Part shown: positions 6,572 through 10,549 of the stretch, one piece after another
Numbering within the stretch: position 1 is the stretch's first letter
Layout of the letters: every line of letters starts with the position of its first letter
NCBI RefSeq assembly: GCF_000426705.1
Contig: NZ_KE384555.1
Location: forward strand, 62,001-126,000
Reading direction: 5' to 3'
Origin: Spirochaeta cellobiosiphila DSM 17781
Lineage (GTDB): Bacteria; Spirochaetota; Spirochaetia; DSM-17781
Length of the DNA: 64,000 nt
Translations under genes and position numbers: made by a program
Notes under the pieces: generated by a model
What the model was told of the DNA's origin: nothing
What the model saw: the letters and a program-made list of their open reading frames with translations, nothing else
Databases searched by the model: none

Positions 6572-7309
6572 ATGGTAGATACTCACATCCATTTATCTTA
6601 CTGTAGCAATATACATACCTTACCCCATGAATGTTGGGATATGTCAGCCTCACTTATTCAATGGAAGGGGATATACAATCGAAGTTTAAAAGAAACGAAG
6701 TGTAAACCTTATTATGGAATACATCCATGGTGGGCAGAAGAATGGAATAACGAAACAAAACAACTATTAATTCAATACCTGAGCAGACAAAACAATGCCG
6801 GTGTTGGAGAAATCGGTTTGGATAAAAATAAGGGACCTTCTTTTGACTTACAAAAAAAAGCTTTTAGGCAACAATTAGACATAGCGATAGAACACAGCCG
6901 TCCTGTTAGCCTCCATTGTGTCAAAGCCTGGGGTGCCATGACTGAAATCCTGGAAGAACACAGCATGACCATACCTATTGCCTTTCATGCCTATTCAGGA
7001 AGTCCGGAATTAATCGAAAGACTTATACGAATGGGAGCCTATATCAGTTTTGCCCCTTTTAACTTAAGAGAGAATAACAAAAAAGGGAGAAAAGCACTCC
7101 AAAATGTTCCTCTTAACAGATTACTGTTAGACTCGGATTTTCCCTATAAAGAAAATCAAAGCTTTCTTGAGTATCCCCAAGTTATGGGAAAACTACTTAT
7201 ACAGGTAAGCCAATTACTTGGATTACACATACAGGAGCTGGAAAAACAACTCTCGGAGAATCTCAATCAATTCCTCAATAAGCCACATTCCAAAACTCAT
7301 CAGTCATAA
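6572..7309 (+). CDS. TatD-family metal-dependent hydrolase
   Basis: This 245-residue TIM-barrel hydrolase begins MVDTHIHL (His5 and His7 are metal ligands). It then shows GVGEIGLDK (the bridging Glu), a QLDIAIEHSRPVSLHC strand with its histidine, AFHAYSGS, and LLLDSDFPY (the last metal Asp). These are the TatD/YcfH signatures in the correct order. Family members are DNA exonucleases or related phosphodiesterases. The start is supported by GAGGACTTC immediately before the ATG. An earlier ATG in another frame leads nowhere. The last 35 bases overlap the convergent aldolase gene. Confidence 0.85.
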   Translation: MVDTHIHLSYCSNIHTLPHECWDMSASLIQWKGIYNRSLKETKCKPYYGIHPWWAEEWNNETKQLLIQYLSRQNNAGVGEIGLDKNKGPSFDLQKKAFRQQLDIAIEHSRPVSLHCVKAWGAMTEILEEHSMTIPIAFHAYSGSPELIERLIRMGAYISFAPFNLRENNKKGRKALQNVPLNRLLLDSDFPYKENQSFLEYPQVMGKLLIQVSQLLGLHIQELEKQLSENLNQFLNKPHSKTHQS

Positions 7310-8195
7310 CACTTTCATCTTTTAGCATAGCAGCCATTGCTTTTCGAGGATGGGTATTGAGAAGCCCAGAGAGAGCATAAGGAAGATGATATCCCCATCG
7401 TAACTTTTGCCTAAGAGGATTGATATGTCTTTCAATAGCTGATGCAATGGGTTTAATCTCTGTAGGGGTCTTGCCCAATTGGGTTAAAAGAAGTTCAAGA
7501 GGACAATTCCCGGCCCCTCTACCCATACCGTAAAATGTTCCATCTACATATTCAGCCCCACATTCTATAGCCATTAAAGTATTGGCCAAGGCTAATTGTT
7601 GGTTATTATGTCCGTGGAATCCAATTTTCTTAGAGGGACAACTATCTTTGTACAATTTAATTAAACCGGCTGTTTGATTCATACTTAATGATCCAAAAGA
7701 ATCCACAACATAAACAGCTTTACATGGGCTAGTCTGATCAATCAATTGTAATGCTTTTTTTAACTCCCCTTGAGAGGAAGAACTAATAGCCATGATATTT
7801 ATGAAGGTTTCATATCCTAATTGATCTAGATATAGGGAGGTTTCGATAGCTTCTTTCACTTGATCAATATAACAAGCTATTCGAAATGTCTTAATCAAAG
7901 AGTCACTCTGAGGGATGAACATATCTAGTTTAAATCGTCCTATATCTACCATAATGGACAACTTGGAATTAGAATATGAACTTGACCAAATGTCAGCCAA
8001 ATCTTCTTCCAAACTAAAACGCCATTTTCCGTATACCGTCGGATCAAAATATTCAGTACTGGCTTTATAACCAACCTCAACATAATCAACTCCAGAACGA
8101 ACAGCAGCCGAAACAACTTCTCGCACACAGGCATCATCGAACTGCCATTTATTCATTAATCCACCATCACGAATAGTACAATCAATTACTTGCAT
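7275..8195 (-). CDS. DRE-TIM-type aldolase/lyase of unknown substrate, controlled by an aromatic leader attenuator
   Basis: This 306-residue TIM-barrel protein starts MQVIDCTIRDGGLMNKW. It carries EVGYKAS and VYVVDSFGS, and GFHGHNNQQLALANT with the metal-binding His-x-His. GTFYGMGRGAGNCPLELLL is near the end of the barrel. These belong to the HMGL-like/DRE-TIM family, which includes isopropylmalate, homocitrate and hydroxymethylglutarate enzymes and hydroxy-oxovalerate aldolases. It lacks the C-terminal regulatory domain of LeuA. The substrate cannot be read from sequence. A strong GGGAGG site lies just before the ATG. The upstream leader is rich in Phe and Tyr codons, so I infer a link with aromatic amino acid or aryl-2-oxoacid metabolism rather than leucine. 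Confidence 0.8.
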   Translation of the reverse strand: MQVIDCTIRDGGLMNKWQFDDACVREVVSAAVRSGVDYVEVGYKASTEYFDPTVYGKWRFSLEEDLADIWSSSYSNSKLSIMVDIGRFKLDMFIPQSDSLIKTFRIACYIDQVKEAIETSLYLDQLGYETFINIMAISSSSQGELKKALQLIDQTSPCKAVYVVDSFGSLSMNQTAGLIKLYKDSCPSKKIGFHGHNNQQLALANTLMAIECGAEYVDGTFYGMGRGAGNCPLELLLTQLGKTPTEIKPIASAIERHINPLRQKLRWGYHLPYALSGLLNTHPRKAMAAMLKDESVMTDEFWNVAY

Positions 8196-8217
8196 TTATT
8201 ACTTACCTCCCAGGTAT

Positions 8218-8246
8218 AAAAAAAGCCCGAAGCGTTTGCTCCGGGC
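8218..8246 (-). terminator. Attenuator terminator in the aldolase leader
   Basis: On the minus strand, GCCCGGAGC-AAAC-GCTTCGGGC forms a 9-bp stem (one G-U) followed by seven U. This is a strong intrinsic terminator ending about 22 bases before the aldolase start codon. It sits downstream of a promoter and a leader ORF rather than after a gene. Its 5' arm overlaps the sequence that can pair with the leader codons. Confidence 0.85.
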
Positions 8247-8298
8247 CTGTTATTCAAAATAATTCCTCTTACTTGGAGGATCTACCGCAAACAGGCCC
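8243..8298 (-). promoter_or_regulatory. Antiterminator stem competing with the attenuator
   Basis: Minus-strand GGGCCTGTT (8298-8290, inside the leader ORF just after its aromatic codons) is perfectly complementary to AACAGGCCC (8251-8243). The second arm includes the first bases of the terminator stem, so the two hairpins cannot coexist. A ribosome stalled on the aromatic codons leaves the first arm free and favours readthrough. A ribosome that reaches the TAA at 8269 covers the first arm and lets the terminator form. Complementarity is seen directly; the mechanism follows the trp/phe attenuation model. Confidence 0.75.
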
Positions 8299-8364
8299 TG
8301 GTGCATACCATGCAAAGTAAAAGAAGAAAAAATAGCTGGTAAAATAGGATCTATTTGCGTTCAT
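8269..8364 (-). CDS. Aromatic-rich leader peptide (31 residues)
   Basis: This ORF starts at ATG 8364 and ends at TAA 8269. The peptide begins MNANRS. Residues 7-20 read YFTSYFFFFYFAWY, that is six Phe, four Tyr and one Trp in fourteen codons. It ends APGPVCGRSSK. Such a run is typical of phe-type leader peptides and very unlikely by chance directly between a promoter and a competing hairpin pair. There is no Shine-Dalgarno sequence. The predicted transcription start is at or within two bases of the ATG, so translation would be leaderless, as is known for some trp leaders. The peptide is too short to be caught by ordinary gene callers. Confidence 0.8.
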   Translation of the reverse strand: MNANRSYFTSYFFFFYFAWYAPGPVCGRSSK

Positions 8365-8372
8365 TTGCACAG

Positions 8373-8401
8373 ATTATGATAGACTTAGCTATTTCTGTCA
8401 A
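8373..8401 (-). promoter_or_regulatory. Promoter of the aldolase leader
   Basis: Minus strand: TTGACA (8401-8396), 17-base spacer, CATAAT (8378-8373). This matches the housekeeping consensus at 11 of 12 positions with the optimal spacing. The expected start of transcription is about 8364-8367, right at the leader ATG. Confidence 0.75.
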
Positions 8402-8605
8402 ACTGTTTCTATAGACAATAACAAAGGAATTTAACATAATTCTGTTAAATTCCTTACAGACATCCATATTTCTAAGTAAACTGATTATCTAATTGCTAAA
8501 GTGAAATAGCTTGCTCCCCCCTCTTCCAGTCAAATAATAGAATTAAAAAAGAACTACTTTCTCAACCTCTGTTCGTAGGACTATCAATATGACATTGTCG
8601 AACAC
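8402..8605. other. Non-coding stretch with a 13-bp perfect inverted repeat
   Basis: No gene is seen between the aldolase promoter and the end of the metalloprotease gene. AAGGAATTTAACA (8424-8436) and TGTTAAATTCCTT (8443-8455) form a perfect hairpin with a six-base loop. On the minus strand it is followed by a moderately T-rich run, so it may terminate the metalloprotease transcript. A regulatory role near the leader promoter cannot be excluded. Nothing else stands out. Confidence 0.5.
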
Positions 8606-10549
8606 TTAAAAAGCTATACTTTTTAAAGGAATTTCTTCGGCATAAGGCATACGATCATTGACAATGTCTTCTAAGTTTCTATTTGAAGTACTTCTAGAAT
8701 CAGCATAGAAATCTCTTGAAAAAGCGAATATTAGGTTAGACCAATCGTCATAGTCTTTAAGCTTAGATTTTTCTCCATTAGTAAAATTGATATCATAGGA
8801 AACTGAAGCATCAATACTTTTGTTTCCATTATAATCTAACCTTGCATTACCCTGTCCAATTCCATCATTCTCATTTATAGCTTTTTCATCTATATCGTTG
8901 CCCATACCATGACTATAGTCAAGGCTAAAGGAAGATGTATTAGGTCCATTCTCAACTCCAAAGGAAATAGGTTCCTTGGAGGAGTCACTCATTAGGGAAA
9001 GCCACCTAGTTTTTATATCAGGTTGCGCATTATTATATTGCTCTAAATAATACCTATCACCTACAGTTTCACTATTAGTATCTGGAAGCCCATATAACTG
9101 GTATAGGTAATTCATAACACTGTAGTAATTGGGTTTATAATTCTGATCCTCATCACCACCATGATGTAATCCTAAATTATGTCCTAATTCATGCATAAAA
9201 GTAGATGCTTGGAGATTTATTAATTCCTGCTTTTTTTCGTTACTATCGGTGTTTAAATCCCAAACACCACCTAAAGTAATGATAAGATCATTTCCGGCCC
9301 CATTAGTGCCCAATTCTGCAATCCCAGAGGAGCCTGCATTTCCTGCACCTTGTAAAAAGCCAAAGACACAATAATGGTATATCCATTTACCTACCATGGG
9401 AAAATACTTTGCTTTAATATCATACAAGTTAGAACTAGAACTGTAGTTACCTAAAGAAACCAATCGACTGTAAGGTATTTCATGACTTGTATTGTCTAAG
9501 TTGTACTTTTCTTTACTAAAGCTAGAACTAAATTTATTACCAATATTTATATGGAGGGAGATATTATTTGCCTCAAACACTTCAACTACCTTATTAAATG
9601 CTTCAATCTGAGGATCTACACCAGCATCATATCCCCTAGAGCCAGTGAAATAATATTCATTATTCGATTTGTTATATCCCAGTAGTTCTACTGAAGTTGG
9701 ATCCATATAGCTCACATATACAAAGATATCTTTTTTACCTGTCCTAGCTCCATAATCATACAAGGGAAGACCTCCATAGGTTCCTCCTGGACTCTCTGCT
9801 TGATCTGGAATACCATCATTATCAGCATCAGTATCATTAGTTATATCATTAATAGAGCTGGGCGTCGAAAATTTACGAAGAGCCCAATCATTATTAGAAT
9901 CGGTATCTATATACATTTCAGAACTCTGATTTCTGGATAAGGAATTACCATAATAGCCATAGTACTTATAAGACGATAAAGAGGAGGGAAACCCTTCAGC
10001 TTTACCAGAAAAATAACCACTTTGAGGCTCTATAGAACAGTTACCAAATCTAATAAAGTCATAAGTGACTCCATCCCTAACCAATTCAACATAACCTGAG
10101 TCAGACCAAAATGAATGATAGGTCACGTTTTTATAGACAACAGTGGGTATAAAATCACCTTGGGAGTGTAATGAATCAGGAGAATGGCTATTTTTAATTT
10201 TTAATACGGCATAACCATGAGGTGCCAACGTATAAGAATGTAAGGGGATTTCCATGACATATACATCATCTTGGCTATTATTAGTTCCATAACTTCGTAA
10301 CGAATAAGCCGATAAATTTACGGATACATTATTGGGATTATAAACTTCAAACCAAATAGAGCTATTCGAATAGTAGCTGGCACCCACTTCTGTAATATAA
10401 ATTTCCTTGGGTGAATAACTTGATGAATTCTGGATTATTAAATGGCCAGCTATATCATCATCAGAGGAGTTACTAAAAAACAAATTACAACTTGTTATTA
10501 AAGTTAAAAGTAATATAGGAGTAACTTTTGCTATGCTTTTTACATTCAT
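8606..10549 (-). CDS. Lipoprotein zinc metalloprotease with lamin-tail-like domain
   Basis: This 647-residue protein has a lipoprotein signal (LLTLITSC, lipid Cys21). Residues about 48-170 resemble a lamin-tail/LTD beta domain (EIYITEVGAS, WFEVYNPNN, YTLAPHGYAVL). A calcium-loop-like stretch TDADNDGIPDQAE lies at 240-252. The catalytic motif HELGHNLGLHH (453-463) fits HExxHxxGxxH, and SVMNY (477-481) supplies the metzincin Met-turn. It should therefore be a surface or periplasmic-face zinc protease; its target is unknown. The ATG follows the upstream DUF3783 gene by 6 bases, with GAGAGG overlapping that stop, so the two are probably one operon. Confidence 0.82.
   Translation of the reverse strand: MNVKSIAKVTPILLLTLITSCNLFFSNSSDDDIAGHLIIQNSSSYSPKEIYITEVGASYYSNSSIWFEVYNPNNVSVNLSAYSLRSYGTNNSQDDVYVMEIPLHSYTLAPHGYAVLKIKNSHSPDSLHSQGDFIPTVVYKNVTYHSFWSDSGYVELVRDGVTYDFIRFGNCSIEPQSGYFSGKAEGFPSSLSSYKYYGYYGNSLSRNQSSEMYIDTDSNNDWALRKFSTPSSINDITNDTDADNDGIPDQAESPGGTYGGLPLYDYGARTGKKDIFVYVSYMDPTSVELLGYNKSNNEYYFTGSRGYDAGVDPQIEAFNKVVEVFEANNISLHINIGNKFSSSFSKEKYNLDNTSHEIPYSRLVSLGNYSSSSNLYDIKAKYFPMVGKWIYHYCVFGFLQGAGNAGSSGIAELGTNGAGNDLIITLGGVWDLNTDSNEKKQELINLQASTFMHELGHNLGLHHGGDEDQNYKPNYYSVMNYLYQLYGLPDTNSETVGDRYYLEQYNNAQPDIKTRWLSLMSDSSKEPISFGVENGPNTSSFSLDYSHGMGNDIDEKAINENDGIGQGNARLDYNGNKSIDASVSYDINFTNGEKSKLKDYDDWSNLIFAFSRDFYADSRSTSNRNLEDIVNDRMPYAEEIPLKSIAF

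Follow-up and report, generated by a model that had tools for sequence, protein, structure and literature searches.

On the minus strand of the window (the whole 64-kb stretch of DNA analyzed here), the gene of an HMGL-like (DRE-TIM) aldolase is preceded by a short open reading frame rich in aromatic codons and by an intrinsic terminator. This arrangement raises the question of whether the gene is controlled by attenuation in response to phenylalanine and tyrosine and, if so, what an uncharacterized enzyme would be doing under such control.

Organization of the leader

A previous sequence-only reading of this locus had listed a promoter (TTGACA-17-CATAAT), a 31-codon open reading frame, an antiterminator pair and an overlapping terminator with seven U, and all of these parts are found in place (Table 1). 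The promoter matches the consensus at 11 of 12 positions and is the top promoter-like site within 7200-8620, while residues 7-20 of the leader peptide are identical to those read earlier. The same reading set the first antiterminator arm some five codons past the aromatic run, which is correct for F17 but not for the last aromatic codon, Y20, located 6 nt from segment 2.

Two features were absent from that reading. The first is segment 1, which pairs with segment 2 and thereby completes the full classical set of 1:2, 2:3 and 3:4 helices in the leader. Folding of the predicted transcript showed that the aromatic codons lie within the loop closed by the 1:2 helix, which forms in competition with the antiterminator. 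The 1:2 helix excludes the antiterminator, and the antiterminator excludes the terminator that lies between the leader reading frame and the aldolase gene. The second feature is the start of the transcript, predicted from the promoter position at about 8364-8366, which would make the leader reading frame nearly leaderless. In addition, a 13-bp inverted repeat (AAGGAATTTAACAGAATTATGTTAAATTCCTT) was observed at 8424-8455, just 5' of the -35 box, which could act as an operator or terminate the upstream gene.

Table 1. Features of the aldolase locus, in coordinates of the 64-kb window
Feature	Position	Strand	Remarks
-35 box, TTGACA	8396-8401	-	TTGACA and 17-nt spacer also in three relatives
-10 box, CATAAT	8373-8378	-	17-nt spacer to -35 box; 8 nt to leader ATG
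Leader reading frame, 31 codons + TAA, MNANRSYFTSYFFFFYFAWYAPGPVCGRSSK	8269-8364	-	ATG 8364-8362, stop 8271-8269
Codons 7-20, 11 aromatic codons (F 6, Y 4, W 1)	8305-8346	-	Proposed stall sites
Segment 1, CGCAAATAG, leader codons 2-5	8351-8359	-	Pairs with CTGTTTGCG at 8286-8294
Segment 2, GGGCCTGTTTGCG	8286-8298	-	Antiterminator 5' arm GGGCCTGTT at 8290-8298; partner of segment 1 at 8286-8294
Segment 3, AACAGGCCC, antiterminator 3' arm	8243-8251	-	Overlaps terminator 5' arm
Intrinsic terminator	8218-8248	-	Stem 8223-8248, 11 pairs, 4-nt loop; U7 tract 8218-8224
Shine-Dalgarno of aldolase gene, GGGAGGT	8205-8211	-	Outside terminator
Aldolase gene, HMGL-like (DRE-TIM), 306 aa	7275-8195	-	Apparently monocistronic

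A six-codon F/Y run alone is not rare in the window's genome (45 matches, versus 57 for the reversed pattern), so the argument against chance must rely on the combination of the parts and their conservation. The window contains 1228 reading frames of 12-60 codons, and no other than the leader reaches 8 aromatics in 12 residues; the leader has 9. Of 3000 dinucleotide-shuffled leaders, none reached 9 of 12 and one reached 8 of 12. A perfect 9-bp terminator with T6 likewise appeared in none of 3000 dinucleotide shuffles. Moreover, the leader has a minimum free energy of -51.9 (z = -3.6), and a 1:2 duplex of equal stability was obtained in 3 of 5000 shuffles. Overall, the parts of the leader stand in order beyond chance, the case resting on their combination and on their conservation.

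Conservation, distribution and proposed mechanism

Searching with the window protein retrieved L004 in genome G053 (47% identity), and L004 as query retrieved L147 in G511 and L148 in G515, which are 61 and 58% identical to L004 and 72% to each other; all three genomes belong to the window's class. Upstream of each gene we found TTGACA, a 17-nt spacer, segments 1 to 4 and U8-U9, with leaders of 32, 33 and 33 codons, respectively, rich in F, Y and W, and a short reading frame with a run of aromatic codons is thus present in all four loci. The comparison with orthologues, which the sequence-only reading had named as its own check, therefore supports an attenuator: the three relatives keep the aromatic reading frame and the hairpins with changed stem sequences. 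The antiterminator arm GGGCCTGTT of the window and CCCGGGTCT of the three relatives are unrelated in sequence, but the arrangement is kept, with 4-6 nt from the last aromatic codon to segment 2, 18-23 nt from segment 2 to the stop codon and 17-24 nt from there to segment 3. Similarly, the ends of the peptides vary among the four leaders, while the aromatic run stays, as does its distance from the hairpins. The z-scores of leader folding range from -3.6 to -4.8 in the four loci, and each native 1:2 duplex outperforms its shuffled versions; 1:2 duplexes equally stable as the native ones occurred in 276 of 5000 dinucleotide shuffles for L004, the weakest case, and in 45 and 1 for L147 and L148. 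Furthermore, the -10 box ends 7-11 nt 5' of the start codon in the window, L147 and L148, so close that translation may start as on a leaderless mRNA, and three of the four leader reading frames have no clear ribosome-binding site.

The distribution of the device is narrow. Across 395 genomes of the class, the stem pattern of the relatives matched three times, exactly at L004, L147 and L148, and its reversed control not at all. At least 8 aromatics in 12 residues were found in only these four among 136 upstream regions scanned, and none of the other 132 carries the device, including those of the second paralogues in G053 (L014) and G511 (L152). The four leader-controlled aldolases form one clade in a tree of 96 relatives (99% SH-aLRT), this being a quick tree with the window row on a long branch. 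Absence from distant members and from second paralogues is as expected for a lineage-specific regulator. Terminators were also noted upstream of L051, L112, L115 and L145, where no strong aromatic leader exists; these are likely terminators of upstream genes. Altogether, four examples of the device were found.

Taking the sequence evidence together, we consider it highly probable that a classical leader-peptide transcription attenuator controls the single-gene aldolase. By analogy with the classical model, we infer ribosome stalling, its specificity for Phe and Tyr and the direction of regulation. With ample charged tRNA-Phe and tRNA-Tyr, the ribosome would pass the aromatic codons and reach the stop codon; by remaining there, within the 2:3 loop, or by departing and letting 1:2 form, it would allow 3:4 to form, and transcription would end. 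When either amino acid is short, the ribosome would stall just 3' of segment 1: the first aromatic codons, Y7 and F8, are 4 nt past this segment, and a ribosome halted there would mask it. Segment 2 would then be free to form 2:3, letting RNA polymerase continue into the aldolase gene. Under this antitermination model, scarcity of aromatic amino acids would lead to synthesis of the aldolase, which would probably serve their metabolism. As the Shine-Dalgarno sequence of the gene lies outside the terminator, control would be exerted at transcription. All four leaders contain Trp codons, though few, and a response to tryptophan would be secondary.

The aldolase and its possible link to aromatic metabolism

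The regulated protein contains an HMGL-like domain with the conserved RD and HxH residues. R9, D10, H194 and H196 are invariant among 26 relatives, for which reason the enzyme is probably catalytically active. Regarding named functions, it scores far below every curated cut-off; 4-hydroxy-2-oxovalerate aldolase (TIGR03217), for instance, was rejected with 110 bits where the cut-off is 286. The nearest solved relative, both by sequence (E 6e-38) and by fold, is 3dxi (BVU_2661 from Bacteroides vulgatus, a structural genomics entry), with about 30% identity in structural alignment, and it is likewise only a 'putative aldolase'. The DmpG-type 4-hydroxy-2-oxovalerate aldolases (1nvm, 4lrt and 4jn6) come next, sharing the HMGL-like fold and the RD...HxH residues, but they are 22-24% identical to the window enzyme, whose locus has no aldehyde dehydrogenase partner gene.

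The family is conserved and spread over many bacterial phyla, and its gene neighborhoods differ. In the leader-controlled loci, the gene apparently stands alone; in the window, its 3' end overlaps that of a convergent TatD-like gene by 35 bases (7275-7309). In 15 Bacteroidota loci, a relative is immediately preceded, in the same orientation, by a small chorismate mutase-like gene; two of these neighbors are CM_2 by Pfam, and one had PchB of salicylate synthesis as its nearest solved structure. An HMGL-like gene, perhaps of this family, adjoins one of the fusions described in a report on chorismate mutase fusions (PMC10520331). A KDPG/KHG aldolase gene is found near relatives in 34 other loci (L056-L135; 31 adjacent on the same strand), in Nitrospina, Omnitrophota and Desulfobacterota-like genomes.

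An apparent Phe/Tyr attenuator in front of the aldolase in four genomes suggests a place for the enzyme in aromatic amino-acid metabolism, and the chorismate mutase-like neighbors in Bacteroidota provide an independent link of the family to this metabolism. It is possible, if doubtful, that the attenuator is real but takes Phe/Tyr shortage as a cue to starvation or growth in general, and that the aldolase acts in an unrelated pathway, for example in the metabolism of surface sugars or 2-oxo acids. The lack of an assigned reaction, the many relatives that adjoin a KDPG/KHG aldolase and the isolation of the gene in the leader-controlled genomes would agree with this. However, a chorismate mutase-like gene accompanies relatives in a different phylum, and leader-peptide attenuators normally regulate genes of the amino acid that they sense.

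Returning to a role in aromatic amino-acid metabolism, other genes of Phe/Tyr synthesis were inspected. No such leader is found upstream of the two DAHP synthases of the window's genome (G000), nor upstream of the four DAHP synthase-prephenate dehydratase fusions of the leader-bearing genomes, so that aromatic control is oddly placed on the aldolase gene alone. In G000, the fusion (L197, G000:C1, 1228-2937) joins prephenate dehydratase to an N-terminal DAHP synthase-like domain of 24.7 bits, below the cut-off, which may be a regulatory remnant, unlike in the genomes of the three relatives, where a full DAHP synthase domain is kept. Replacement of DAHP synthase by the aldolase was ruled out, as G000 holds two intact, full PF00793 enzymes. 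Prephenate dehydratase is present in G000 and G053, and neither chorismate mutase CM_2 (PF01817) nor CM_1 (PF07736) was found in these assemblies, which are about 95-96% complete; a divergent or unassembled chorismate mutase is possible in both. Replacement of chorismate mutase is not supported as a rule, because in G511 and G515 the leader-controlled aldolase coexists with a CM_2 enzyme of this kind; it may still apply to G000 and G053. Only as a speculation, and one that we regard as rather improbable, could the leader-controlled protein and the wider family behind chorismate mutase-like genes in Bacteroidota catalyze an unrecognized step of Phe/Tyr biosynthesis or of chorismate use, perhaps standing in for or bypassing a missing one in genomes such as G000, in which neither known fold of chorismate mutase was found.

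Comparison with known regulatory systems

In Sinorhizobium meliloti, trpL is near-leaderless and its transcript acts in trans (PMC7298713). The window leader resembles it in that the transcript would begin at or next to the leader AUG, as predicted from the promoter position, and differs in that trpL senses Trp and controls trpE(G) (PMC7298713). Such a precedent, a near-leaderless reading frame on a short terminated RNA, together with the strong hydrophobicity of the leader peptide, would be compatible with the peptide or the terminated RNA acting in trans, as a hydrophobic peptide or a base-pairing sRNA, with attenuation secondary or absent. We consider this very unlikely, since the peptide ends vary and only the aromatic run and the hairpin spacing are kept, as expected for action in cis. 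Least credible of all is a tRNA- or metabolite-binding element (T-box or riboswitch) with an incidental aromatic reading frame: a terminator/antiterminator switch would by itself suit it, but Rfam covariance models of T-boxes, riboswitches and other leader families gave no match in the window or its relatives, and the aromatic reading frame, its length and the hairpin spacing are kept in all four loci while stem sequences change.

The leader-peptide attenuator that we favor is best compared with pheL-pheA and pheM-pheST of Enterobacteria, in which a Phe-rich leader peptide is combined with mutually exclusive hairpins and an intrinsic terminator. The window leader likewise has an aromatic-rich peptide, exclusive hairpins and an intrinsic terminator before the gene. 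However, its target is an uncharacterized DRE-TIM aldolase rather than pheA or pheST, its codons mix Phe, Tyr and some Trp, and it belongs to a different bacterial group; moreover, its segment 1 precedes the aromatic run, and its stop codon falls within the 2:3 loop. Earlier work cites phenylalanine attenuators (PMC1262725). A phe-type attenuator in front of an aldolase of this family, which the sequence-only reading had thought new, has no earlier description in the open-licence literature, most subscription journals being outside it. Classical ribosome-mediated attenuation would be added, with partly near-leaderless leaders, to a group for which no report was found in open-licence papers. 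A Phe/Tyr attenuator in one lineage and chorismate mutase-like neighbors in another each point, independently of the other, to a role in aromatic amino-acid metabolism, a testable function, and the device offers a clue to what a widespread, uncharacterized enzyme family does. Altogether, the regulator is of a textbook kind, and it is the target that is not: a conserved family whose nearest solved relative is itself just a 'putative aldolase'.
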